Below are positions 25,536 to 64,000 of a stretch of DNA of 64,000 bases, one piece after another (positions within the stretch are counted from its first letter, which is position 1; every line of letters begins with the position of its first letter). This stretch comes from Bosea sp. PAMC 26642 (GTDB taxonomy: Bacteria; Pseudomonadota; Alphaproteobacteria; Rhizobiales; Beijerinckiaceae): assembly GCF_001562255.1 (NCBI RefSeq), contig NZ_CP014301.1, positions 1,116,001 to 1,180,000 on the forward strand, written 5' to 3'. Under the pieces are notes generated by a model. That model had not been told where the DNA came from and did not search any database. It worked only from the letters and a program-made list of their open reading frames with translations. The translations under genes were made by a program, and so were the position numbers.

Positions 25536-27089
25536 TCACTTCGTGAAGCGCGTCGTCTCCAGCACCGGCGGCCCCAGGTTCAGAGACGCCTTGAGCTCGT
25601 AGCCGAGGTCGAGGCTGTCCTTGTAGGCCCAGAGCTGCATCATCTCGTTGACCGGAATCGCGCAGACCTGATCGATGATCTTCTTCTGCGCGGTCTTCCA
25701 GAGTTCGAGTTGCTTGGCCTTGTCGGTTTCCGAGCGCGCCGCATCGATCTCGGCATCGGCGACGTTGCAATGCGAGAAGTTGGTCACCGCGGTCGGCGTC
25801 TTCACGATCGCCCGCGAGTGGAAGAACTGCGACAGATAGACGTCCGCCACGGGGAAGCGCGCCGCCTGGAAATGCACGACCTGCGACAGATCCTGCCGGA
25901 TCTGCTGGTGGAAGGTCGCGTGCTCGACGGGCTGGATCTCCAGCGTGATGCCGGCCCGCTTCAGCAGCGCCTGCGTCGCCTCGGTGAAGCTCAGCATCGA
26001 GGGCAGCGTCGTGTTGATCGCCTTGATCGTCACGCCGTTGGGAAAGCCCGCCTCGGCCAGCAATGCCTTAGACTTGGCGAGGTCGAAAGGCAGCAGCGGC
26101 GCCTTCTCGTCGGTGCCGAGATAGCCCGACGGCACCACCGAAACGGACGGCCGCGAGATGTTCTTGCCGCGGAACTGCCAGATCGCGTTGCGATCGATCG
26201 CATGCGCGATGGCCTGGCGCACTTTCAGATTGTCCAGCGGCGGCTGGCTCATGTTGAGATGCAGAACCGACATCTCGGCCGGACCCATCGCCACCACCTT
26301 GACGCCGGGCAGGGCGGTCATGCGGTCGACCCAGGCCTGCTCCTGGCGGCCGATCATCATGTCGAGTTCGCCGGCCTGGAAGGCGAGATCGCGCGACGAA
26401 TCCGACGGAATGAAGCGATAGAGGATCTCGGTCAGCTTCGGCTTGCCGCGGAAGTAGTTCGGGTTGGCGGCGAGCTTGGCGTATTGCTGCGGCACGTATT
26501 CCTGGAACATGAACGGGCCGGTGCCGACCGGCTTCTTGGCGAAGCCTTCCTTGCCTAGCTCCTCGGCGGCCTTTTTGCAGACCATGTTGCCGCCATGGTA
26601 GTTCATCACGATACCCAGCAGGCTCGGGACCGCCTGCTTCAGCGTGATCTTGACCGTGTACTTGTCGGGCGCCTCGACCTTGTCGAAGGCCGAATAATCC
26701 GAGGAGAAGGCCGAGCTGTCCTTGCTGGCCGAGCGGCCCAGCGAATAGACCGCATCCTCCGAGGTGAACTCGCCATAGCCGTGATGGCACTGCACGCCCT
26801 GGCGCAGCTTGAAGGTCCATTCCTTGCCGTCGTTCGACGAGGTCCAGCTCTCGGCGAGGTCGGGCTCCATGAATTCCGGGGAAAGCTCTCCCGGCTTGAT
26901 CCGCACCAGCCCGTTGAACATCCACTGCAGCATCGCCTTGCCGGGCGTGCCGGAATTCAGATGCGGATCGAGCACGCCGGCATCCGAGCTTTGCATACCC
27001 ACGGTCAGCACCGTCTTCTGCGCCAGCGCCGGCGTCGCGAGCAATGCGCCGGCCAATGCGGCAGCGGCGATCAATCGGGTTTTCGTCAT
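25536..27089 (-). CDS. Peptide-type ABC substrate-binding protein
   Basis: Periplasmic binding protein of family 5 (DppA/OppA/NikA), 517 aa. Signal peptide MTKTRLIAAAALAGALLATP with an ALA-type cleavage site near residue 23. The mature domain shows GTPGKAMLQWMFNGLV, LAESWTSSNDGKEWTFKLR and the KPVGTGPFMFQEYV motif of the family. The ATG at 27089 has AGGGGA upstream. It is followed by two inverted repeats and then dppB-, dppC- and dppDF-type genes, so it is the binding component of that importer. A sigma-54-like box lies 62 bp upstream. Ligand unknown; the adjacent DadA-like oxidase suggests an amino-acid-like compound. Confidence 0.92.
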   Translation of the reverse strand: MTKTRLIAAAALAGALLATPALAQKTVLTVGMQSSDAGVLDPHLNSGTPGKAMLQWMFNGLVRIKPGELSPEFMEPDLAESWTSSNDGKEWTFKLRQGVQCHHGYGEFTSEDAVYSLGRSASKDSSAFSSDYSAFDKVEAPDKYTVKITLKQAVPSLLGIVMNYHGGNMVCKKAAEELGKEGFAKKPVGTGPFMFQEYVPQQYAKLAANPNYFRGKPKLTEILYRFIPSDSSRDLAFQAGELDMMIGRQEQAWVDRMTALPGVKVVAMGPAEMSVLHLNMSQPPLDNLKVRQAIAHAIDRNAIWQFRGKNISRPSVSVVPSGYLGTDEKAPLLPFDLAKSKALLAEAGFPNGVTIKAINTTLPSMLSFTEATQALLKRAGITLEIQPVEHATFHQQIRQDLSQVVHFQAARFPVADVYLSQFFHSRAIVKTPTAVTNFSHCNVADAEIDAARSETDKAKQLELWKTAQKKIIDQVCAIPVNEMMQLWAYKDSLDLGYELKASLNLGPPVLETTRFTK

Positions 27090-27151
27090 CGCAATTCCCC
27101 TGCTATTTTTCTTTAGGTCTCGATCAGCCCGGCGCGTTCGCCGGCCTGTCA

Positions 27152-27166
27152 GCAATTGGCGGGCCA
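27152..27166 (-). promoter_or_regulatory. Candidate sigma-54 promoter of the binding-protein gene
   Basis: On the reverse strand TGGCCCGCCAATTGC, followed by T. Compared with TGGCACRNNNNTTGCW there is one mismatch (A to C), and the essential GG-N10-GC is intact. It lies in the 83-bp gap after the SDR gene; transcription would start near 27140, giving a leader of about 50 bases. Confidence 0.45.
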
Positions 27167-29054: not shown

Positions 29055-29287
29055 GGAATTACCGGCCCTCCCCAGCGCAAGACGACCTATACCGGTTGTG
29101 CCGGCAAAGGATGTCAAGCGCTGCTCCGGGTTGCGCCACTGGTCCGGCACACGCTTTCGACGCTGGCACACAAGATGCAAAGCGCTTCGATGCTCGAAGC
29201 CATAGCTCGCGGACGCAAAAGCCCTCGTCCTCCATTGACAGTGCGCTGCGCACCAATTCACCTTCCTGCCAGCCCCGGAGGATTGCC
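29055..29287. other. Divergent promoter region between an oxidase gene and an orphan binding-protein gene
   Basis: 233 bp with no gene. Forward signals: the sigma-54-like box at 29164-29178, a TTGACA at 29235-29240 without a good -10 hexamer, and a GTGCGC-T-GCGCAC palindrome at 29241-29253 just after it that could be an operator. Reverse signal: TTGACA at 29112-29117 with only a weak -10. Confidence 0.4.
29164..29178 (+). promoter_or_regulatory. Candidate sigma-54 promoter of the orphan binding-protein gene
   Basis: TGGCACACAAGATGC followed by A. One mismatch to TGGCACRNNNNTTGCW (T to A at the first base of TTGC); GG-N10-GC is kept. Transcription would start near 29190, about 98 bases before the ATG. 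Confidence 0.35.
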
Positions 29288-30811
29288 ATGACGATCTCGC
29301 GCCGCACCCTTCTCGCCGCCGGAGCCAGCCTGCCGTTGCTCAAGGCGCAGGCCTTCGCGCAGACGTCCGGCAAGGTCCTGCGCTTCGGCCTGTCGAGCTT
29401 CCCGCCGAGCCTGCAGCCCTGGGTCCACACCGGCACGGCCGCGCTGACGGCCAAGCTCCTGATCTTCCGCGGCCTCACCGGCTTCGACGAGAAGGGCGAG
29501 GTCCGGCCCGAACTCGCCGAATCCTGGACGCAGGACGGTCCGACCGGCTGGATCTTCAAGCTGCGCCCGGCGACATTCCACAACGGCAAGCCGGTCACCG
29601 CCGAAGACGTCAAATGGACGCTCGAGCAGATCGCCGCGCCCAACTCGACCGCCTTCATGAAGGCGGAGTTCGGCGGCATCGAGCGCATCGAGACCCCCGA
29701 CCCGCTGACTGTCCGCATCGTCATGAAGGAGCCGACCGCGACGCTGCCGATCTGGCTCGCCAGCCCGCACATGCCGATCGTTGCCAAGGACTCGATCGAG
29801 GGTCGTGCCGGGCTCGGCATCGGCGCCGGCCCCTTCGTCATCAAGGATCAGGAGCGCGGCGTCTCGATCGAGGTCGCCAGGTTCGACAAATACTACAAGC
29901 CCGGACTGCCGAAGCTCGCCGGCGTCAAGCTGATCGCTTATGCCGACGAGAACCTGCGCGTCGCCGCCCTTCAGGCCGGCGACATCGACCTGATCGAATA
30001 CGTCCCCTGGCAGCATATGGCGACGATCGAGAAGGATCCGCGCCTGACGCTCGTGGCCGCCGACGGTCCCTTCATGGGGTTGAACTTCAACGGCAGCAAC
30101 GGTCCCTTCAAGGATGTGCGGCTGCGTCAGGCGGCGGCCCATGCCGTGCGCCGCGAAGAGATCGTCCAGGCCGCCTTCTTCGGGCGCGGCAGCAAGCTCG
30201 AAGGCATCCCGATCCTGCCCGGCAGCCCCTATTTCGACAAGGCGCGCTCGGAATTCTGGAAATACGATCCCGACAAGGCCAAAAAGCTGATGGCCGAGGC
30301 CGGCGTGCCCAAGGGTTTTTCCTGCACGCTGCTCTCGACGGCGCAGTACGGCATGCACAAATCGACCGCCGAGATCGTCCAGGCGCATCTGGGCGAGATC
30401 GGGATCGACGTGAAGCTCAACCTGCCGGACTGGGCCGGCCGCGTCGATGCCGCCGGCAAGGGCCGTTACGAGTTCATGATCCAGGGCACGACGGCCGACA
30501 ACAACGATCCCGACGGCCTCGCCCCGCTGATCGACGGCGATTTGCCGGCCAACATGGCGCGAAGCTGGACGCTGCCGACGCCCGAGATCCACGCGCTCTT
30601 CGCCAAGGGCCGGGCCGAGTTCGACCCTGCCAAGCGCAAGGCGATCTACGCCGAGCTAGAGAAGTTCGCGCTGGAGCAGGCCCCGCTGGTCGGCCTCGCC
30701 TGGCGCTCGCAGGGCTACGGCATGGTCAAGGGCGTCACCGGCTTCAAGAGCCTGCCGGGCGGCACCAACTTCTTCTCTGCCTATTCGATGGAAGAGACGG
30801 CGCTGGCCTAA
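29288..30811 (+). CDS. Peptide-type ABC substrate-binding protein without adjacent permease genes
   Basis: 507-aa family 5 binding protein. The N-terminus TISRRTLLAAGASLPLL looks like a Tat signal (twin Arg, then hydrophobic stretch), so the protein may be exported folded. Mature motifs include LAESWTQDGPTGWIFKLRP, DVKWTLEQI and NGSNGPFKDVRLRQAAAHAV. GGAGG sits 8 bases before the ATG at 29288. It stands alone between two reverse-strand DadA-like oxidase genes, with no permease or ATPase behind it, so it probably delivers a second ligand to one of the neighbouring importers. An inverted repeat follows the stop. Confidence 0.9.
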   Translation: MTISRRTLLAAGASLPLLKAQAFAQTSGKVLRFGLSSFPPSLQPWVHTGTAALTAKLLIFRGLTGFDEKGEVRPELAESWTQDGPTGWIFKLRPATFHNGKPVTAEDVKWTLEQIAAPNSTAFMKAEFGGIERIETPDPLTVRIVMKEPTATLPIWLASPHMPIVAKDSIEGRAGLGIGAGPFVIKDQERGVSIEVARFDKYYKPGLPKLAGVKLIAYADENLRVAALQAGDIDLIEYVPWQHMATIEKDPRLTLVAADGPFMGLNFNGSNGPFKDVRLRQAAAHAVRREEIVQAAFFGRGSKLEGIPILPGSPYFDKARSEFWKYDPDKAKKLMAEAGVPKGFSCTLLSTAQYGMHKSTAEIVQAHLGEIGIDVKLNLPDWAGRVDAAGKGRYEFMIQGTTADNNDPDGLAPLIDGDLPANMARSWTLPTPEIHALFAKGRAEFDPAKRKAIYAELEKFALEQAPLVGLAWRSQGYGMVKGVTGFKSLPGGTNFFSAYSMEETALA

Positions 30812-53384: not shown

Positions 53385-54248
53385 TCAGTCCGTGAAGACG
53401 ACGGTCTTCTTGCCGTTCAGTACGACGCGATCCTCAAGATGGTTCAGCACTGCTCGCGCCAGCACGCGCCGTTCGATGTCGCGGCCCTTGCGGACGAGGT
53501 CGTCGGGCGTGTCACGATGCGAGATGCGCTCGACGTCCTGCTCGATGATCGGCCCCTCGTCGAGATCGGGCGTGACGTAATGGGCGGTGGCGCCGATCAG
53601 TTTCACGCCCCGCTCATGGGCCTGATGGTAGGGCTTTGCGCCCTTGAAGCCCGGCAGAAAGGAATGGTGGATATTGATGCAGCGGCCGATGAGCTTCGAC
53701 GAGAACGCGTCCGACAGGATCTGCATGTAGCGCGCCAGCACGACGAGGTCCGTCTTCGTTTCCTGGACCAGCCGCCAGATCTCGGCCTCCTGCTCCATCT
53801 TGGTCTGGCGCGTCACAGGCAGATGATGGAAGGGCAGGTCGCCGAGATCGGTCGAACCAATGCCGTCGCGCCCATGGTTTGAGACGATCGCCGAAATCTC
53901 CATCGGCAGCTCGCCGATGCGCCAGCGATAGAGCAGATCGGCCAGGCAATGGTCGAATTTCGAGACCAGCAGCATGACGCGCTTCTTCGCCTGCCGCTCG
54001 CGCAGGGTGAAATCCATGCTGAAGCGCCCGGCCAGTTCGGCGACCGAAGCAGCGATGGCGTCGGGAGGCCGGCTCCCCTCCAGCCGGTTGAAGACGACGC
54101 GCATGAAGAAGCGCCCGGTCTCGACATCATCGAATTGCTGCGCATCGAGGATGTTGCAGCCGGCCTCGAACAGCAGGGTCGAGACACTCGCGACGATGCC
54201 GGGACGGTTGGGGCAGGACAGGGTGAGGATCGCAGTATGTTCGGGCAT
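53385..54248 (-). CDS. purU: Formyltetrahydrofolate deformylase
   Basis: Hydrolyses 10-formyl-tetrahydrofolate to formate and tetrahydrofolate; 287 aa, normal length. N-terminal ACT domain (residues about 7-80; [20 protein letters not shown]), then the formyl-transferase fold ([16 protein letters not shown]). Active-site residues are in [19 protein letters not shown] near residue 190, TAHYVT near 220 and LDEGPIIEQ near 229. The ATG at 54248 begins the ACT domain; the open frame beyond it lies in the regulatory region of the divergent importer operon. A stem-loop follows the stop. Confidence 0.95.
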
Positions 54249-54513
54249 GGCTGATGCCGCCTGACGAGGGCGGTCCTTTGCTTCGAGATTTCTGGATGGC
54301 GGCGGACGGATCGAGGGCGCGCGACGCGCTGCGCTCAACCTCGCGCCGTACTTGTCATCCGGCAGGCGAACTCCGCGCCGGAGGACGACAACCAGGCCCG
54401 GAAGCCGCTGGCCATGCTGCGCGGAACCATGATGTCGAGGCCGCTCCATCGGGGCCATCGTTGGCCTGCCGCAATGCACACCGATACAGGCGATGCTTGT
54501 CAAGGCGACGTGC

Positions 54514-54528
54514 TGGCACAGCCCTTGC
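54514..54528 (+). promoter_or_regulatory. Sigma-54 promoter, upstream copy
   Basis: TGGCACAGCCCTTGC, an exact match to TGGCACRNNNNTTGC with GG and GC 10 bases apart. Predicted start near 54540, inside the second copy. Confidence 0.65.
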
Positions 54529-54536
54529 GGACGTGC

Positions 54537-54551
54537 TGGCACAGCCCTTGC
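54537..54551 (+). promoter_or_regulatory. Sigma-54 promoter, downstream copy
   Basis: Second exact TGGCACAGCCCTTGC. Predicted start near 54563; GGAG at 54578-54581 and the ATG at 54589 follow at normal distances, so this copy is the better placed one. Confidence 0.75.
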
Positions 54552-54588
54552 GAAGGAACTTCGAAATCGACAAATCCGGAGCTGCCCG

Positions 54589-56187
54589 ATGATCCGTCTC
54601 GCCGTCGCCTTGTCCCTCGCAGCAGGCGTCACGCTTGCTGCCCAGCCGGTCGTTGCACAAGGAACGCTGCGCATCGGCATGACGGCATCCGACATCCCGC
54701 TGACCACTGGCCAGACCGACCAGGGCGGAGAAGGTATGCGCTTCATGGGCTATACGGTCTATGACGGCCTGATCAACTGGGACCTCAGCAAGGCCGACAA
54801 GGCGTCGGATCTGGTTCCGGGCCTCGCGACCAGTTGGACCACCGACGCGACCGACAAGACCAAATGGACCTTCGTCCTGCGCGAGGGTGTGAAATTCCAT
54901 GACGGGTCGGAATTCACCGCCGATGCCGTGGTCTGGAACCTCGACAAGCTCCTGAAGAACGATGCCCCGCAATTCGACCAACGCCAGGCGGCGCAGGGCC
55001 GCTCGCGCATTCCGGCTGTCGGGAGCTACAAGGTCATCGACAAATACAAGGTCGAGATCGTTACCAAGACGCCTGACGCGACGCTGCCCTACCAGATCGC
55101 CTGGATCATGATGTCGTCGCCGGCGCAGTGGGAGAAGCTCGGCAAGAGCTGGGACGCTTTCGCCAAGACCCCGTCCGGCACCGGCCCCTGGCAACTCACG
55201 GCGTTCCAGCCGCGCGAGCGCGCCGAACTCTCGCCATATCCCGGCTATTGGGACAAGGCCCGCGTGCCCAAGCTCGACAAGCTCGTGCTGCTGCCGCTTC
55301 CTGAAGCCAATGCCCGTGCCGCCGCCTTGCGCTCGGGCCAGGTCGACTGGATCGAGGCACCGTCGCCCGACATGGTGCCCTCTTTGAAGACGGCCGGCTT
55401 CCAGATCATCACCAACGCCTATCCGCACAACTGGACCTGGCATCTCTCCCGCACCGAGGGTTCGCCCTGGAACGACGTCCGCATCCGTAAGGCTGCCAAT
55501 CTTGCCGTCGACCGCGAGGGCCTGAAGGAACTGCTCAGCGGCTTGATGATCCCGGCGCAGGGCTTCTATCCGCCCGGCCACCAGTGGTTCGGCAATCCGA
55601 GCTTCAAGCTGAAATACGATCCGGAGGCCGCCAAGAAGCTGCTCGCCGAAGCCGGCTTCTCGCCCGCCAAGCCGGTGACGACCAAGATCCTGATCGCGCC
55701 GTCGGGCTCGGGCCAGATGCAGCCGCTGCCGATGAACGAATTCGTCCAGCAGAACCTCGCTGAAGTCGGCATCAAGATCGATTTCGAGGTCGTCGAATGG
55801 AATACGCTGATCAACATTTGGCGTGCCGGCGCCAACCATGAATCGTCGCGCAAGGCGACGGGCATGAACTACACCTACTTCATCCAGGATCCCTTCACCG
55901 GGCTGATCCGCCATCTCCAGTGCAACCTCCAGCCGCCGGCCGGCACCAATTGGGGCATGTATTGCGATCCCGAGATGGACAAGCTCTTCGAGCAGGTCCG
56001 CAACACCTTCGATTCTGCCGCGCAGACCAAGGTCCTGCAGACGATCCACGAGAAATATGTCGATGAAGCGCTGTTCCTGATGGTGACGCATGACGTCAAC
56101 CCGCGCGCGCTCAGCCCCAAGGTGAAGGGTTTCGTGCAGGCCCAGAACTGGTTCCAGGACTTCTCGCCGATCACGATGGCGAAGTGA
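54589..56187 (+). CDS. Peptide-type ABC substrate-binding protein (third operon)
   Basis: 532-aa family 5 binding protein. Signal peptide [18 protein letters not shown] with cleavage near VAQ (residue 24). Mature motifs: [60 protein letters not shown], the [12 protein letters not shown] signature and [16 protein letters not shown]. The ATG at 54589 has GGAG 8 bases upstream and lies just behind two sigma-54 boxes; the longer frame would read through the promoter. An inverted repeat follows the stop, then permease and ATPase genes. Confidence 0.93.
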
Positions 56188-56371: not shown

Positions 56372-57325
56372 ATGCTGAGCTACCTCGCCAAGCGCATTCT
56401 CTACGTCCTGCCGGTGGCACTCGGCGTCAGCGTGTTCTGCTTCCTGCTGGTTCACATCGCGCCAGGCGACCCGCTGACCTCCATCCTGCCGCCCGATGCC
56501 TCACAGGCGACGCAGGATGAAATGCGCCGCATCTACGGCTTCGACAGGCCGCTCCCCGTCCAGTTCGGCCTCTGGCTCTGGAAGGCGCTGCAGGGCGACC
56601 TCGGCACCTCGATCGCGACGGGGCGTCCCGTCGCGGCGGAGGTCTGGCGCGCCGTCGGCAATACGCTTCTGATCGCGGGGCTCGCGACGGTGATCGGCTT
56701 TCTGTTCGGCTGCTTCTTCGGCTTCGTCGCTGGCTATTTTCGCGGCTCGGTCCTCGACAAATTCGCATCGATGCTCGCCGTGCTCGGCGTCTCGGTGCCG
56801 CATTACTGGCTCGGGATGGTGATGGTCATCGTCTTTTCGGTACAGCTCGGCTGGCTGCCGCCGGGCGGGGCGGGTCCGGGCGGCTCTGCCGCCTGGAAAT
56901 GGGATTGGGAGCATGTCAGCTACATGATCCTGCCGGCGATCACGATGTCGGTGATCCCGATGGGCATCATCGCTCGCACCGTGCGAGCCCTCGTCGCCGA
57001 TATCCTCAACCAGGAATTCGTGCCGGCGCTACGAGCCAAGGGGCTGATGGATTTCGGCGTGTTCAGGCATGTCGTGAAGAACGCCGCGCCGACCGCTCTT
57101 GCCGTGATGGGCCTGCAGCTCGGCTATCTGCTCGGCGGCTCGATCCTGATCGAGACGGTGTTCTCCTGGCCCGGAACCGGGTTCCTGCTCGGCAATGCCA
57201 TCTTCCAGCGCGATCTGCCGCTGTTGCAGGGCACGATCCTAGTGCTGGCGATGTTCTTTGTCGGTCTGAACGTCCTCGTCGATATCATCCAGGGCCTGCT
57301 CGACCCGCGCGTCAGGAGGCGCTGA
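56372..57325 (+). CDS. Peptide-type ABC importer permease, DppB family (third operon)
   Basis: 317-aa permease. MLSYLAKRILYVLPVALGVS is the N-terminal helix, followed by HIAPGDPLTSILPPDASQA and the YGFDRPLPVQFGLWL segment of DppB proteins. EAA loop FVPALRAKGLMDFGVFRHVV; C-terminus LLDPRVRRR. ATG 56372 is preferred because the 10 residues before it are encoded by the tail of the inverted repeat. The DppC-type gene follows after 1 bp. Confidence 0.92.
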   Translation: MLSYLAKRILYVLPVALGVSVFCFLLVHIAPGDPLTSILPPDASQATQDEMRRIYGFDRPLPVQFGLWLWKALQGDLGTSIATGRPVAAEVWRAVGNTLLIAGLATVIGFLFGCFFGFVAGYFRGSVLDKFASMLAVLGVSVPHYWLGMVMVIVFSVQLGWLPPGGAGPGGSAAWKWDWEHVSYMILPAITMSVIPMGIIARTVRALVADILNQEFVPALRAKGLMDFGVFRHVVKNAAPTALAVMGLQLGYLLGGSILIETVFSWPGTGFLLGNAIFQRDLPLLQGTILVLAMFFVGLNVLVDIIQGLLDPRVRRR

Positions 57326-57326
57326 G

Positions 57327-58220
57327 ATGGCCGCGATCACCGAAAGCGCGGTGCCGACCGTGGTGGCGCCGCTTGCGAAATCGCCGGGCTATTGGGCCGG
57401 CGTCTTCAGGCGCTTCAAGAAAGACAAGGTCGCGGTCGGGGCCGGGCTCGTCGTGCTGGCCATCATCCTGATGGCGATCTTCGCCGACTACATCGCGCCG
57501 GCAGACCCGACCCGCTCCTCGATGCTGCGGCGTCTGCGGCCGATCGGGACGCCCGGCTATCCGCTCGGCGCCGACGAACTGGGCCGCGACATGCTCTCGC
57601 GCCTGATCTTCGGCGCACGCCTCTCGCTCTTCATGGGCGTCGTTCCGGTCTTCGTCGCCTTCGTCGTCGGCTCCGTCATCGGCGTCGCCGCCGGCTTCTT
57701 CGGTGGCAAGTTCAACACCATCACGATGCGAACCGTCGATGTCTTCTACGCCTTCCCCTCGGTGCTGCTGGCGATTGCGCTGTCGGGCGCGCTCGGCGCC
57801 GGCATCACCAACTCGCTGCTCTCGCTGACCATCGTCTTCATCCCGCCGATCGCCCGCATCGCCGAAAGCGTGACGACGCAGGTTCGCGGCATGGACTATG
57901 TCGAGGCCGCCCGTGCCAGCGGCGCCAATGCGCTGACGATCATCCGGGTGCATGTGCTGGGCAATGTACTCGGGCCGATCTTCGTCTACGCGACGAGCCT
58001 AATCTCGGTCTCGATGATCCTCTCCTCGGGCCTCTCCTTCCTCGGGCTGGGCACCAAGCCGCCGACGCCCGAATGGGGCCTGATGCTGAACACGCTGCGC
58101 ACCGCGATCTATGTCCAGCCTTGGGTCGCGGCATTGCCGGGCGCGGCGATCTTCATCACCTCGATCTCGTTCAACCTGCTCTCCGACGGTCTGCGCTCGG
58201 CAATGGACGTGAAGGGCTGA
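57327..58220 (+). CDS. Peptide-type ABC importer permease, DppC family (third operon)
   Basis: 297-aa permease. First helix AVGAGLVVLAIILMAIFADY, family motif LGADELGRDMLSRLIFGARL, EAA-type loop YVEAARASGANALTIIRVHV. The operon continues with an ATPase gene 2 bp downstream. Reverse-strand frames over this gene are shadows. Confidence 0.93.
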   Translation: MAAITESAVPTVVAPLAKSPGYWAGVFRRFKKDKVAVGAGLVVLAIILMAIFADYIAPADPTRSSMLRRLRPIGTPGYPLGADELGRDMLSRLIFGARLSLFMGVVPVFVAFVVGSVIGVAAGFFGGKFNTITMRTVDVFYAFPSVLLAIALSGALGAGITNSLLSLTIVFIPPIARIAESVTTQVRGMDYVEAARASGANALTIIRVHVLGNVLGPIFVYATSLISVSMILSSGLSFLGLGTKPPTPEWGLMLNTLRTAIYVQPWVAALPGAAIFITSISFNLLSDGLRSAMDVKG

Positions 58221-58222
58221 CC

Positions 58223-59263
58223 ATGACCAAGGAAACCCATCACCAAACCCATCCCGATCGCGGCGGCCCCGGCACACCGCTGCTGCAAGCGAAAAACTTG
58301 ACCAAGCATTTCCCGCTCGGCTGCGGCGCGGTGGTGCGCGCTGTCGATGGCGTCGACTTCGCCGTCCTCAAGGGCGAAACGCTCGGCGTCGTCGGCGAAT
58401 CCGGCTGTGGCAAATCGACGACCGCCCGCGTCGTCATGCAACTCATCCCGCAGGACAAGGGCGAGATGCTGTTCGACGGCGAGATCGTCGGCGGATCGGC
58501 CCTGACGCTGAAGGAATACCGCCGACAGGCCCAGATGGTCTTCCAGGACAGCTACGCCTCGCTCAATCCGCGCCTGACCATCGAGGATTCGATCGCCTTC
58601 GGCCCCACCGTCCATGGTGTCTCGAAGGCCGGCGCGATCCTGCGGGCGCGTGACCTGCTGCAGCGCGTCGGCCTCGACCCCGCCCGCTTTGCAGCGCGCT
58701 ATCCGCACGAACTCTCCGGCGGCCAGCGCCAGCGCGTCAACATCGCACGTGCGCTCGCGCTGGGCCCACGCCTCGTCATCCTCGACGAGGCGGTCTCGGC
58801 TCTCGACAAATCGGTCGAGGCCCAGGTGCTGAACCTGCTCGCGGACCTGCGCGAGGAATTCGGCCTGACCTATATCTTCATCTCGCATGACCTCAACGTC
58901 GTCCGCTTCATCAGCGACCGCGTCATGGTGATGTATCTCGGCGAGGTCGTGGAGATCGGCCCGGTCGAGGAGCTCTACGGCGATCCGCGCCACCCCTATA
59001 CAAGGGCGCTGCTTTCGGCGATGCCGTCGATGGACCCGGACAACCGGACCATGGAGGCCCCGCTCGCCGGCGATCCGCCCAATCCGATCAACCCGCCTGA
59101 GGGCTGCCGCTTCCACCCGCGCTGCCCGCACGCGCAAACGGTCTGCTCCAAGACCAAGCCTGTTCTGGCGACCATCGATGCGGGCACGCGCGAGGTCGCC
59201 TGCCACATGCAGGTTCCTGGCTCCGGCCACAGCCACGCCCCCCGACTGGAGGCCGCCGCATGA
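58223..59263 (+). CDS. Peptide-type ABC importer ATPase, DppF/OppF family
   Basis: 346-aa ATPase. Walker [18 protein letters not shown] near residue 56, Q-loop MVFQDSYASLNPR, signature [15 protein letters not shown] near 165, Walker [13 protein letters not shown]. The C-terminal tail has the oligopeptide-family motif HPYTRALLSAMP and the cysteine-rich GCRFHPRCPHAQTVC, which in relatives can bind an iron-sulfur cluster. Unlike the two other peptide-type operons in this window, the two ATPases are separate genes here. The next gene overlaps by ATGA. Confidence 0.93.
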   Translation: MTKETHHQTHPDRGGPGTPLLQAKNLTKHFPLGCGAVVRAVDGVDFAVLKGETLGVVGESGCGKSTTARVVMQLIPQDKGEMLFDGEIVGGSALTLKEYRRQAQMVFQDSYASLNPRLTIEDSIAFGPTVHGVSKAGAILRARDLLQRVGLDPARFAARYPHELSGGQRQRVNIARALALGPRLVILDEAVSALDKSVEAQVLNLLADLREEFGLTYIFISHDLNVVRFISDRVMVMYLGEVVEIGPVEELYGDPRHPYTRALLSAMPSMDPDNRTMEAPLAGDPPNPINPPEGCRFHPRCPHAQTVCSKTKPVLATIDAGTREVACHMQVPGSGHSHAPRLEAAA

Positions 59264-60240
59264 GCACCCCTCTCGTCGCCATCGAGAACCTCACCGTGCG
59301 CTTTCGCGGCGCCCAGACCGTCCATGCCGTCAACGGCGTCTCGCTGACGCTGGAACCAGGCAAGGTGCTCGGCATTCTCGGCGAATCCGGCTCGGGCAAG
59401 AGCGTCACGCTGAAGACGCTTTTACGTCTGCTGCCAGAGAGCCGCACCGATATCGGCGGCAGCGTTCGGGTCGATGGCCGCGACGTTCTGGCCTTGAATC
59501 CACGGGATCTGTCGGATTATCGCGGCGCCGTCACCTCGATGATCTTCCAGGACCCGGCGCTGGCGCTCGATCCGGTTTATACCGTCGGCGAGCAGATCGC
59601 CGAGGCGATCGTCCGGCATGAGAAGCTGTCGCGGAAGGCGGCGATGGCGCGCGCGCTCGAACTGCTCGAACTCGTCCGCATTCCGTCGCCCGCGCGGAGA
59701 TTGAAGGCCTATCCGCACGAGATGTCGGGCGGCATGCGCCAGCGCGCCATGATCGCGCTCGCGCTCGCGGCCCGTCCCAAGCTCCTGCTCGCCGACGAAC
59801 CGACCACCGCGCTCGACGCCACGGTGCAAATCCAGATTCTGTTGCTGCTGCGCCAGCTCCAGCGCGATCTCGATATGGGTATGCTGTTCGTCACCCACGA
59901 CATCGGCGTCGCGGTCGAAGTCTCGGACCGGCTCGCGGTAATGTATGCCGGCCAGATCGTCGAGACCGGCACGGTGCGCGAATTGCTGCGTGACCCACAG
60001 CATCCCTACACACGAGGCTTGCTCGCCGCCAACCTGCACGGCGCGAAGAAAGGCGAGCGGCTGGAAGCGATCCCGGGCGCCCCGCCGGCACTGAACGAAG
60101 CGCCGAATGCTTGCTCGTTCGCGCCGCGCTGCAAGCATGTTCAGGACCGCTGCCGCTTGGCCCTTCCGCCGAAGATCGAGCTTGGCGAGGGACGGGTTGT
60201 GCGCTGCATCTTGGCCGAAGCTGCGCTCGCAGCGGCCTAA
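59260..60240 (+). CDS. Peptide-type ABC importer ATPase, DppD/OppD family
   Basis: 326-aa ATPase that pairs with the DppF-type protein just upstream. Walker [18 protein letters not shown] near residue 43, Q-loop IFQDPALALDPVY, signature MSGGMRQRAMIALAL near 158, Walker [13 protein letters not shown]. The tail contains HPYTRGLLAANL and the cysteine motif CSFAPRCKHVQDRC. Last gene of the third importer operon; 118 bp separate it from the SDR gene that follows. Confidence 0.93.
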   Translation: MSTPLVAIENLTVRFRGAQTVHAVNGVSLTLEPGKVLGILGESGSGKSVTLKTLLRLLPESRTDIGGSVRVDGRDVLALNPRDLSDYRGAVTSMIFQDPALALDPVYTVGEQIAEAIVRHEKLSRKAAMARALELLELVRIPSPARRLKAYPHEMSGGMRQRAMIALALAARPKLLLADEPTTALDATVQIQILLLLRQLQRDLDMGMLFVTHDIGVAVEVSDRLAVMYAGQIVETGTVRELLRDPQHPYTRGLLAANLHGAKKGERLEAIPGAPPALNEAPNACSFAPRCKHVQDRCRLALPPKIELGEGRVVRCILAEAALAAA

Positions 60241-60358
60241 CGACCGGCTTGCTTCAACGAACCAGCCAGTGCCGACGCCATTCCCATGACGCGGCCGACC
60301 CGCTATCAGCGGCTGATGCGCGTCACGGAAGGCGCGGATCGACAGGCAGGAGCAGATC

Positions 60359-61144
60359 ATGGATCTCGGTCTTCACGACAAACGCGCGCTTGTTCTGGGC
60401 GCGAGCCGCGGGTTGGGCGCCGCCATCGCCAGGACGCTGGCAACCGAAGGCGCCAGCGTGATCGCAGCCGCCCGCACGGTCGCGGCGACCGAAGCCTGGA
60501 TCGCCGAATTGCCGCAGGATGCGCGCGCGCGCGTCTCGGCGGCGCAACTCGATCTCGCCGACCTGGCCTCGGTCGATGCCCTGCTCGCGTCGCTGACGCA
60601 GGCGGGCGGCGTCGATATCCTTGTCTGCAATTCCGGTGGCCCGCCGCCCTCCGAGGCGCGCGAGGCCAGGCGCGACGACTGGCTGAAGCATTTCGAGGCC
60701 ATGGCAGCCAATCTCTTCCATGTTGCGCAAGGACTGCTGCCTGGCATGGCCGAGAGGGGCTTCGGCCGCATCATCACCATTGCCTCCTCGGGCGTGGAGC
60801 AGCCGATCCCACGGCTCGCGCTGTCGAACGGCATCCGCTCGGCCGTCATCGGCTGGTCGAAAACCCTCTCGGCCGAGGTCGCCGCTCAAGGGATCACCGT
60901 GAACGTGGTGCTGCCGGGCCGTATCCAGACCGAGCGCGTCGACCAGCTCGACAAGGCCGCGGCCGACCGCACCGGCACCACGAAGGACGAGGCGGCCAAG
61001 GCCTCCCGCGCCACGATTCCGGCCGGCCGTTACGGCACGGCGCAGGAATTCGCCGATGTCGTCGCCTTCCTCGCCAGCACGCGGGCAAGCTACGTCACGG
61101 GCGCGAAGATCCGCATCGATGGCGGCGCGACGCGCGGGATCTGA
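60359..61144 (+). CDS. SDR-fold protein lacking the usual catalytic Tyr and Lys
   Basis: 261-aa short-chain dehydrogenase-fold protein. The cofactor motif is clear (LGASRGLG, residues 13-20), and NSGGPPP (91-97) replaces NNAG. Ser 143/144 are present, but where YxxxK is expected the sequence reads [10 protein letters not shown] (residues 154-163), with no Tyr and with Arg 160 near the Lys position. A subgroup of SDR proteins with NSGGPPP and LALSN is known to me, with no settled reaction. AGGAG lies 8 bases before the ATG. It may be a reader gene of the importer operon (118-bp gap) or belong to the CoA-ligase cluster it faces. Confidence 0.83.
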
Positions 61145-61204: not shown

Positions 61205-61612
61205 TCACCCGGCGATCACCGCCGTCGCCTCGATCTCGACCATCGCCTCGGGCTCGACCAGCGAGACCACCTGCACCACGGCCATCGCCGGGAAATGCCG
61301 GCCCAGCACCTCGCGATAGACCGGCCCCATCTCCTTCAGGCTGGCGCGATAAGCGACGATGTCGGTGACGTACCAGGTCAGCCGGACGATATCCTCGATG
61401 CGCCCGCCGCCGGCCTCGACCACGGCTTTGATGTTCAGCAGCGTCTGGCGCAGCTGCGGCAGAAAGCCCTCCGCGAAGACGCCCGCCGCGTCCCAGCCGA
61501 CGAGGCCGCCCGTGACCAGCACGCGGCCCTGCGCCACCATACCGTTGGCATAGCCGCGCGGCACGGGCCAACCCTCGGGCAGGATGGCGCGGGACAGGGA
61601 ATCGTTCGACAT
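61205..61612 (-). CDS. Rid-family protein without the RidA catalytic arginine
   Basis: 135-aa YjgF/YER057c/UK114-fold protein. Canonical RidA hydrolyses enamines and needs an Arg in a PARS-type segment; here the same place reads FPAMAVVQV with Met 110. The conserved Glu side (MVEIEATAV, Glu 126/128) is kept. It thus fits the Rid subgroups that lack this Arg and are not thought to be enamine deaminases. The ATG at 61612 has GAGGCG upstream. Third gene of the reverse operon acyl-CoA dehydrogenase - CoA ligase - Rid, 44 bp after the ligase. Confidence 0.87.
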   Translation of the reverse strand: MSNDSLSRAILPEGWPVPRGYANGMVAQGRVLVTGGLVGWDAAGVFAEGFLPQLRQTLLNIKAVVEAGGGRIEDIVRLTWYVTDIVAYRASLKEMGPVYREVLGRHFPAMAVVQVVSLVEPEAMVEIEATAVIAG

Positions 61613-61656
61613 GGGCGTCGCCTCGGTTTCGGCCGTTCCGGCTCGCATGGGATATT

Positions 61657-63297
61657 TCAGCGTTCGCCGCGCGCCATCTGGCGCAGTGCGAAGCGCTGCA
61701 GCTTTCCGGTCGGGGTCTTTGGAAGCGCTGCGACGATCTCGATCGCGCGCGGATATTTGTAGGGCGCGATGCCGGCCTTGACATGGTCCTGCAAGAGTCT
61801 GACCAGGCCCGGATCCGGCCTGTGTCCCTCGCGCAGCACGACATAGGCCTTGACGATCTGCCCCCGTTCGGGATCGGGCGCGCCGACGACGCCGCATTCC
61901 ACGACGGCAGGATGCATCAGCAGGCAGGCCTCGACCTCGGGGCCTGCGATGTTGTAGCCGGCCGAGATGATCATGTCGTCGGAGCGGGCCTGATACCAGA
62001 AATAGCCGTCGGCATCGCGCAGATAGGTGTCGCCGGTGATATTCCAGCCGTCGAGGACGTATTTCGCCTGACGGCTGTCGGCGAGATAACGGCAGCCGAT
62101 CGGGCCCCGTACGGCGAGCCTGCCGGGCGTGCCGTCTGGCACTTCACCGCCGGCTTCGTCGACGATCCTGGCCTCGTAGCCCGGTACCGGGATGCCGGTC
62201 GATCCGGCCCGGATCGCCTCGCGCGGCGCGGCGATGAAGATGTGCAGCATCTCCGTGGCCCCGATGCCGTCCATCAGTGCGATCCCGGTCCGGGTCTGCC
62301 AGGCGTCGAAGATCGGCTTCGGCAGGGTCTCGCCGGCCGAGACGCAAATGCGAAGCGAAGAGATGTCGCGTCCGTCGAGCTTGTCGAGCATGGCGCGATA
62401 GGCGGTCGGCGCGGTGAAGCTGACGGTCGCCTTGTGCCGTTCGATCGCATCGACGAGGTCGGCCGGTGCGGCTTTCTGCGGCAACACCATCACCGCCCCG
62501 ATCCGCATCGGGAACAGCACCAGCCCGCCGAGCCCGAAGGTGAAGGCGAGCGGCGGCGAGCCGATGAAGCGGTCGTCAGGCGAGGCCTTCAGCACGCGCG
62601 CACCATAGCAGTCGCAGATGATCAGCAGGTCGCGCTGGAAATGCATCGTGCCCTTGGGCTCGCCCGTCGTGCCCGAGGTGAAGCCTATCAGGCAGACATC
62701 GTCGTTCGAGGTGTCGGCGGCACTGAAATGCTCGTAGCCGTCCTTGCGCATCAGCATCTCGAGGCTGCCGGCCGAGCCGTCGCCCCACGTCACGATTCGC
62801 GCCAGTTCCGGCGCCTGCGCCCGAGCAGCTTCGAGATCGGCCAGCAAGCCATGGTCGCATAGCGCCAGCGCGATCTGCGCCTTGCGGATCGGATAGACCA
62901 GTTCGCCCGCGCGCAGCATCGGCATAGTCGCAACCACGACGCCGCCGGCCTTCAGCACGGCGAGATAGGCCGCGACCATCATCGGGGTGTTGGCGGCGCG
63001 CAGCAGCACGCGATTGCCCGACACCATGCCCAGATCACGCGTCAGCACATTGGCGATGCGGTTCACCTGCGCCGCGAGCTCGGCATAGCTCCATTGCAGA
63101 TCGTCGGCGATGATCGCGATGCGGTCGCCGCGTCCCGCCGCGACATGGCTGTCGAGCAACTCGCTGACGACGTTGAGACGCTCGGGGTACGACAGCCCGG
63201 CTTCTGCGACGCGCAGCTCCGGCCAGCTTTCGCGCGGCGGCAGGTTCTTGCGTGAGAACCCATCGACATGGCCAGATCGGAGGAAGTCGGCCGCCAT
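61657..63297 (-). CDS. Acyl/aryl-CoA ligase, benzoate-CoA ligase type
   Basis: 546-aa adenylate-forming enzyme that would activate an aromatic or similar acid with ATP and CoA. P-loop motif FTSGTTGEPKGTMHFQRD near residue 200, A5 region MDGIGATEMLHIF, A7 TGDTYLRDADGYFWYQ, A8 hinge RSDDMIISAGYNI and the catalytic Lys in PKTPTGKLQRFAL. Overall pattern is that of benzoate- and 2-aminobenzoate-CoA ligases. The AGGAGG at 63305-63310 is directly in front of ATG 63303 but correctly spaced for ATG 63297, so the latter is chosen. It follows the acyl-CoA dehydrogenase gene with almost no gap. Confidence 0.88.
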   Translation of the reverse strand: MAADFLRSGHVDGFSRKNLPPRESWPELRVAEAGLSYPERLNVVSELLDSHVAAGRGDRIAIIADDLQWSYAELAAQVNRIANVLTRDLGMVSGNRVLLRAANTPMMVAAYLAVLKAGGVVVATMPMLRAGELVYPIRKAQIALALCDHGLLADLEAARAQAPELARIVTWGDGSAGSLEMLMRKDGYEHFSAADTSNDDVCLIGFTSGTTGEPKGTMHFQRDLLIICDCYGARVLKASPDDRFIGSPPLAFTFGLGGLVLFPMRIGAVMVLPQKAAPADLVDAIERHKATVSFTAPTAYRAMLDKLDGRDISSLRICVSAGETLPKPIFDAWQTRTGIALMDGIGATEMLHIFIAAPREAIRAGSTGIPVPGYEARIVDEAGGEVPDGTPGRLAVRGPIGCRYLADSRQAKYVLDGWNITGDTYLRDADGYFWYQARSDDMIISAGYNIAGPEVEACLLMHPAVVECGVVGAPDPERGQIVKAYVVLREGHRPDPGLVRLLQDHVKAGIAPYKYPRAIEIVAALPKTPTGKLQRFALRQMARGER

Positions 63298-63299
63298 CG

Positions 63300-64000
63300 T
63301 CATCCCTCCTGCCGCGCGGCTTGCGCCTTGAGAAGATCGCGCGCGATCACGATCTTCTGCACCTCGGTCGCGCCCTCATAGATGCGCAATGCCCGGATTT
63401 CGCGATACAATTCCTCGACCTTGACGCCTTTGGTGACGCCGAGCCCGCCATGGATCTGCACGGCGCGGTCGATCACCTTCTGCGCGTTCTCGGTCGCGAC
63501 CATCTTGGCGAGCGCCGCCTCGCGCGTAACCCGCGCTGCACCCTTGTCCTTGGTCCAGGCCGCCCGATAGACAAGCAGCGCCGCTGCATCGACCTCGGCC
63601 GCGCTGTCGGCGATGGCAGCTTGCGACAGCTGCAGATCGCCCAACGTCCCGCCGAACAGCTTTCGTCCGTTCGCGTGCGAGACCGTCTCGTGCAGCGCAC
63701 GCCTGGCGAAACCGAGCGCTGCCGCGCCGACCGTCGAGCGGAAAATGTCGAGCGTCGCCATCGCGACCTTGAAGCCGTCACCCGGTCCGCCGATGCGGTT
63801 CTCGACCGGGATGCGGCAGGCCTCGAAGCGCAAAGTCGCGAGCGGATGGGGAGCGATCACGTCGATGCGCTCTGCAATGGTCAGGCCAGGCGTATCGGCC
63901 TCGACCAGATAGGCCGAGAGGCCGCGCGCGCCCGGCGCCTCGCCCGAGCGCGCGAAGACGATGTAATGGTCGGCGATGCCGCCATTCGAGATCCAGGTTT
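63300..64000 (-). CDS. Acyl-CoA dehydrogenase (5' end outside window)
   Basis: C-terminal part of a FAD-dependent acyl-CoA dehydrogenase; the frame is open to the window edge, starting with [17 protein letters not shown], a core family segment. C-terminal landmarks: [53 protein letters not shown] and the terminal [20 protein letters not shown]. The GTG at 63860 is an internal codon and not a start. Its stop touches the start of the CoA ligase gene, so both belong to one operon; it would oxidise the CoA ester made by a pathway enzyme. Confidence 0.92.

Follow-up and report, generated by a model that had tools for sequence, protein, structure and literature searches.

Tandem duplication of a sigma-54-type promoter core at a rearrangement junction upstream of an ABC importer operon in Bosea sp. 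PAMC 26642

In the soil bacterium Bosea sp. PAMC 26642, a 23-bp segment carrying a complete sigma-54-type -24/-12 core is present twice upstream of an ABC importer operon, and the repeat lies at the border between the operon's own promoter region and the remnant of a gene found elsewhere in related genomes. The doubling of the promoter is probably accidental, and its effect modest. In this work we examined a 64-kb window, i.e. the whole stretch of DNA that was analysed (64,000 nucleotides of contig NZ_CP014301.1, positions 1,116,001 to 1,180,000), and followed up an earlier note on this repeat by comparison with related genomes. Feature coordinates are those of the window.

Results

The two copies of the 23-bp unit GACGTGCTGGCACAGCCCTTGCG occupy positions 54507-54529 and 54530-54552 of the forward strand. 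By sequence comparison they stand head to tail with zero mismatches, and Tandem Repeats Finder gives a period of 23, 2.0 copies, 100% and a score of 92; the repeat thus consists of two adjacent identical copies, and the unit is duplicated unchanged, as the earlier note had stated. It is the sole exact tandem repeat in the window with a unit of 15-60 bp and at least two copies. The same scan of 509 kb from the loci of 80 relatives yielded 2 sites, each with approximately four to five copies, and in loci of the Bosea genome under study (237 kb, some overlapping) it found no additional site.

Both copies contain TGGCAC-N5-TTGC, with GG at -24 and GC at -12 separated by ten bases. The distal box (TGGCACAGCCCTTGC, 54514-54528, forward strand) lies at -75 from the ATG at 54589, and the proximal box, which has the same core (54537-54551, forward strand), lies at -52, so that two -24/-12 boxes 23 bp apart are indeed present, followed by GGAG and the ATG as had been reported; the GGAG, a Shine-Dalgarno-like element read from the sequence, is at 54578-54581 on the forward strand. 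The boxes had been called perfect, which is correct for the core, where 10 of 10 positions match. Two positions differ from the fuller sigma-54 consensus YTGGCACGrNNNTTGCW, as quoted in the available text of PMC13207237: A is found instead of G after TGGCAC, and G instead of A or T after TTGC.

The operon downstream, referred to here as opp, is read on the forward strand and begins with a substrate-binding protein of the SBP_bac_5 family (54589-56187). According to profile matches this is followed by an OppB/NikB-type permease (56372-57325), an OppC/NikC-type permease (57327-58220), two ATPases with an oligo_HPY domain (58220-59263, with an approximate start, and 59260-60240) and, at the operon end, a short-chain dehydrogenase (60359-61144). 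The binding protein, the two BPD_transp_1 permeases and the two oligo_HPY ABC ATPases form one operon and all score above the Pfam cut-offs, and the description of the locus as a peptide-type importer operon therefore stands as far as a peptide/nickel-type ABC importer is meant. It does not extend to a peptide substrate: when the binding protein was searched for a named substrate class (OppA, DppA, NikA, GsiB), it gave 11 NCBIfam matches, all below their cut-offs, with a best score of 126 of 600 bits, so that "peptide" is a family label and not a substrate. The short-chain dehydrogenase gene stays beside opp in two other genomes of the genus (G009 and G010) and is outside the colinear part of two others (G008 and G020). 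The same distribution is seen for the DNA at 61205-63303 on the reverse strand, where genes for a RidA-like protein and a protein of the benzoate/aminobenzoate-CoA-ligase family converge on the importer operon.

When the 30 best opp loci of the genus were compared, some of them more distant, a single box was found in 28 and two boxes only in the Bosea genome under study; in the orthologue of G1118 no box was found when up to one mismatch was allowed. The distal box is absent from all 29 other loci, and the proximal box is the one that keeps the conserved distance from the ATG. By this comparison, which the earlier note had proposed in order to learn whether one or two copies are ancestral, one copy is ancestral and the duplication derived at the level of the genus. 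In the binding-protein gene, eight near orthologues differ from the species under study at 27-34% of fourfold sites, which makes the duplication younger than this deep species split. Identity over 23 bases is compatible with approximately 5-10% neutral divergence (P from 0.31 to 0.09).

To the left of opp, the gene purU (formyltetrahydrofolate deformylase, TIGR00655 above cut-off) lies at 53385-54248 on the reverse strand, and next to it, also on the reverse strand, a remnant of soxG (gamma subunit of sarcosine oxidase), corresponding to the 3' part of the gene, extends from 54338 to 54507, its left limit being deduced from the soxG-purU spacing in another locus (L264). The remnant looks decayed, with 36 amino acids aligning in one frame over approximately 170 bp. 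Of the 66 other genomes of the genus, 45 have a match to the DNA at 54249-54530 in another place, short partial matches included. In the 29 loci that were fetched, soxG was always found (tblastn, E <= 1e-8), nearly whole in 28 and as a fragment in G1117, and purU adjoins it in 22. In G010 the gene is SoxG according to Pfam (PF04268, E 3.3e-16), and the gene order is soxA-soxG-purU-SBP_bac_5-permease; the binding protein that follows purU there has its counterpart at 4.60 Mb in the Bosea genome under study, with 88.7% identity. SoxA was not found in the two stretches searched, 1100001-1190000 and 4578001-4598000. The matches at 54430-54507 had been considered as a possible dispersed repeat, which was rejected on account of the mostly single match per genome and the soxG gene in all the loci fetched.

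The limits of similarity place the junction between the soxG remnant and the opp promoter at 54507-54535. On the soxG side, the last similar position is 54506-54507 in 22 of the 29 fetched loci and falls between 54497 and 54512 in the other seven; on the opp side, 14 of the 29 other opp loci show similarity from 54534-54536 onwards and the rest from further in. In the relatives, soxG and opp occupy distant chromosomal positions (e.g. 0.39 and 2.72 Mb in G009, 1.50 and 4.92 Mb in G010, 1.71 and 3.87 Mb in G020), and purU-side DNA is absent from the opp loci compared for colinearity (G008, G009, G010 and G020). With soxG and purU elsewhere in the relatives and opp similarity starting at about 54535, two places appear to have been joined in the Bosea genome. 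The repeat, according to these alignments, sits on a rearrangement junction, at which the soxG remnant and purU were joined just upstream of the opp core promoter.

To the right, colinearity from 54535 extends to 65250 with G010 and at least to 63476, the end of the stretch compared, with G009; an insertion of opp as a small cassette was set aside on this basis. With G008 and G020 colinearity stops at 60242, and the right side is thus variable within the genus too. On the left, opp is preceded in G009 and G010 by a second binding-protein gene and an error-prone DNA polymerase, and in G009 and G020 by an ImuA-like protein that scores below its cut-off. Four Bosea opp loci (L267-L270) show the same variability, with an error-prone DNA polymerase cluster with or without the second binding-protein gene, and the box stays. 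The operon thus keeps its core promoter despite changes in the DNA to its left. Plasmids of relatives gave 10 records with a match, none of which covers the promoter region.

In G1117 soxG is broken within approximately 10 bp of the same place, with other DNA beyond (L258, G1117:C42:229580-229781 and flanks), and the opp locus of that genome is on a contig other than that of the soxG fragment. As soxG is broken there at nearly the same place, the break may be separate from the joining, recurrent or older than it; the gene may break repeatedly at this point, or both genomes may share a truncation of older date.

Simple slippage during replication of the promoter could also have produced the duplication independently of the rearrangement, and its position on the junction would then be a coincidence. 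Exact box pairs of similar size in two other genomes (G729 and G023, see below) are in keeping with such events. Yet only a few bases separate the start of the repeat from the last base with soxG homology, and there are exactly 2.0 copies, without residual microhomology. We consider slippage independent of the junction possible but unlikely.

The earlier note also suggested that the second copy was kept by selection, for promoter strength or for altered enhancer spacing. Two landing sites, separated by approximately two turns of the helix, might raise the capture of RNA polymerase-sigma-54, or offer a better start register, after the rearrangement; both copies remain identical and intact, and the upstream DNA is new in the lineage. 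If the event is young, however, identity over 23 bp needs no selection (P = 0.31 at 5% neutral divergence). We looked for similar arrangements in four overlapping sets of genomes, counting pairs within the allowed spacing and using TGGCAY in the sets of 397 and 396. Paired boxes were found, with the Bosea genome included, in 2 of 61, 3 of 387, 4 of 397 and 5 of 396 genomes, and the exact box pair in 1 of the 61, the Bosea genome itself. Outside this genome the figures are 1 of 60, 2 of 386, 3 of 396 and 4 of 395, and duplicated sigma-54 boxes are therefore rare, as had been supposed. The backwards control pattern was paired in 0 of 61, 0 of 387, 2 of 397 and 2 of 396 genomes. Counted by matches, the 396-genome scan gave 5 box pairs, Bosea included, versus 5 control matches located in two genomes, and in none of the four overlapping scans (61-397 genomes) was an enrichment over the control clear.

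Some of the other pairs resemble the one in Bosea sp. PAMC 26642 in their period. Another Bosea (G023) has an exact pair with a period of 20 bp. In G729 (L175, G729:C23:237756-237792) an exact pair has a period of 22 bp, and an open frame starts 55 bases after the second box; read by eye, this frame resembles a luciferase-type monooxygenase. At least five head-to-tail 22-bp copies with a perfect sigma-54-like box lie at a contig end in G258 (L142, G258:C87:1-122). These similar periods speak for selection; the G258 array, however, faces the end of a convergent frame and not a gene start. The pairs of G059 and G716 are located within open frames or extend across them, the copies in G163 are unlike and 34 bp apart, and paired boxes also occur in G834 and G1041. 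With so few pairs and as many control matches, the claim of selection for strength or enhancer spacing is unsupported, and we regard the retention of the second box by selection as decidedly unlikely. A more general proposal, namely that tandem sigma-54 cores approximately two helical turns apart form a recurrent, selectable capture array that offsets the loss of native upstream DNA and has arisen again in other Alphaproteobacteria (G023, G729), appears quite improbable.

The assignment of the boxes to sigma-54 was examined separately. The strict motif TGGCACN5TTGC has 15 matches in the genome versus 11 for the backwards pattern, which is near chance, so that the assignment draws on comparison and not on the motif by itself. 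We compared 22 distinct orthologous upstream regions, comprising 17 from matches starting at residue 1, Bosea sp. PAMC 26642 included with its proximal copy, and 5 from a further search; same-genome copies were left out, as were loci whose match lacks an ATG start at residue 1, which include several Bosea loci. All 22 regions have a box 49-54 bp in front of the start codon, and the proximal copy is thus placed at the conserved distance from the ATG, in line with the earlier description of it as ideally placed. TGGCA and TTGC are invariant, and the sixth base is C in 20 regions and T in 2. This conservation follows the sigma-54 pattern, with invariant GG and GC, ten bases between them and a variable spacer. 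In the 20 bases preceding the box, the frequency of the top base is between 0.32 and 0.73 across the 22 regions, i.e. the upstream DNA is not conserved.

A single match to the Sigma54_DBD profile identifies one RpoN in the genome. There are seven Sigma54_activat matches over the cut-off, four of them strong and none inside the window. Among the strong ones, NtrC, NtrX and FlbD exceed NCBIfam cut-offs, and the fourth is a response regulator below all cut-offs shown. The other three, weak partial matches of 25.0-28.6 bits, were set aside; such matches mean little, since the family matches all 14 control genomes. NtrC-type enhancers have the consensus TGCACC-N4-6-GGTGCA. A scan with this NtrC-type palindrome found no match with up to three mismatches in 54250-54506 and nothing convincing at the opp promoter; in the same scan of the 15 strict sites, a match with two mismatches was found upstream of one only, at another locus (L040). 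Two pairs of inverted repeats lie upstream of the opp promoter.

Similar boxes are found at other importer genes. With a rule of at most one mismatch at 200-450 bp before the domain start, 14 of 48 SBP_bac_5 matches (one of them a short fragment) have a box, versus 0 of 48 on the reverse strand and 0 of 48 with the backwards pattern. In a wider stretch of 600 bp, the first 30 matches gave a forward box in 11 and a reverse one in 1. Five of the 14 boxes match perfectly and the other nine differ at one position, none of the 14 having lost GG or GC; some of these nine may be chance matches. Strict boxes also lie upstream of flgF and of an amidase gene.

The boxes might, alternatively, not be an RpoN promoter, in which case the conserved 15-mer would have another role and transcription would start elsewhere. 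The near-chance frequency of the strict motif and the result of the NtrC-type palindrome scan agree with this. Against it stand the sigma-54 pattern of conservation, the excess of boxed importer matches over both controls, the strict box at flgF, and a search of 54240-54700 that found no match to a sigma-70-type promoter. This alternative is very improbable, and the proximal box is well supported as the sigma-54 promoter of the importer operon, presumably used by RpoN. The conserved boxes, the single RpoN and the four full activators together favour the sigma-54 promoter that had been proposed in front of the operon.

Two more SBP_bac_5 genes of the window, at 25812-27166 (reverse strand) and 29164-30523 (forward strand), have the near-consensus boxes TGGCCCGCCAATTGC and TGGCACACAAGATGC upstream. 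At 4.89-4.91 Mb of the same genome (L138 and L139), paralogous importer genes carry the strict boxes TGGCACGGCCCTTGC and TGGCACGGTCGTTGC near open frames that look amidase-like by eye, which suggests a nitrogen-scavenging set. In Methylobacterium loci, e.g. L073, L076 and L104, a variant sequence, TGGCCG-N5-TTGC, is seen at a greater distance upstream of the match and may be the form that the box takes there. The available text of PMC11804256 lists RpoN in all the Bosea strains that it compares. Predicted RpoN sites of Bradyrhizobium sp. DOA9, filtered by differentially expressed genes, include two genes labelled as peptide/nickel binding proteins (PMC13207237, in part), and in Sinorhizobium meliloti dppA2B2 is grouped with the genes that increase, as glnII does, when nitrogen is limiting (PMC3596328, in part); in view of these reports, the association of sigma-54 with importers is not new in the order. 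The 14 boxed matches, set against four full activators, outline a testable nutrient-import regulon in Bosea.

Finally, an assembly artefact at the repeat or the junction is extremely improbable: although the species is represented by one genome in the comparison, the repeat lies on the 5.5 Mb contig of a two-contig assembly, the 46-bp array is shorter than ordinary reads, and the soxG remnant has the appearance of decay.

Discussion

We consider it likely that the following course of events accounts for the locus as a whole. The proximal box would be a conserved RpoN promoter, belonging to one of a group of sigma-54 importer operons in Bosea. A rearrangement would have severed the operon from its former upstream DNA just before the core promoter and linked it to the soxG remnant beside purU, and during or after this rearrangement a 23-bp stretch with the entire -24/-12 core would have been duplicated in tandem.

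With the C of the GC taken as -12, the predicted start points are at 54540 for the distal box and at 54563 for the proximal box, both on the forward strand, with leaders of 49 and 26 nt, respectively. The sigma-54 closed complex has a footprint from approximately -34 to -5. As the distal start point falls inside the TGGCAC of the proximal -24 element and the footprints overlap, we infer that the two sites are probably mutually exclusive. RNA polymerase-sigma-54 would thus fill one site or the other, giving transcripts with a 26-nt or a 49-nt leader, and the gain in output would be modest at most, so that the duplication may be nearly neutral. Since 23 bp correspond to about 2.2 helical turns, the two sites would face the activator at slightly different angles. 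Both predicted leaders fold no better than shuffled sequences (z of 0.88 and 1.08). The locus offers a natural experiment on whether sigma-54 output depends on the number of closed-complex sites within reach of the activator, with one-box orthologues at equal distance from the ATG as clean controls.

In bacteria, the control of an operon can change by rearrangement or by tandem duplication. The opp locus resembles such cases in that its upstream DNA has been replaced, and differs from them in that the operon's own core promoter has been doubled. Our search of the open-access literature found no report of a sigma-54 promoter duplicated in nature. Near wordings in the available parts of PMC7045595, PMC3253710 and PMC5072197 concern two promoters at different genes, the text examined from PMC3333780 and PMC10597470 deals with tandem promoters and has no tie to a sigma-54 pair, and that of PMC4842269 treats RpoN-like promoters in general.

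The closest natural parallels in the sources examined in part are single sites. In Bradyrhizobium sp. DOA9, Table 1 of PMC13207237 gives the similar predicted RpoN sites TGGCATACCATTTGC at -73 and TGGCACGAACCTTGC at -43 for the two genes labelled as peptide/nickel binding proteins, whereas in Bosea the core is present twice, identical, 23 bp apart and at a junction. Two nearby sigma-54 promoters have been combined in synthetic circuits, for which the available text of PMC4490610 reports context effects; these are engineered and not a natural duplication. Two start sites for one gene are also described, in the parts of the sources at hand, for the tandem sigma-54 and sigma-66 promoters of Chlamydia (PMC7482065) and for glmY, where a sigma-54 promoter overlaps a sigma-70 promoter and mutual interference is reported (PMC6075780). 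In both of these systems two different sigma factors are involved, whereas the two sites in Bosea are identical and both of the sigma-54 type.
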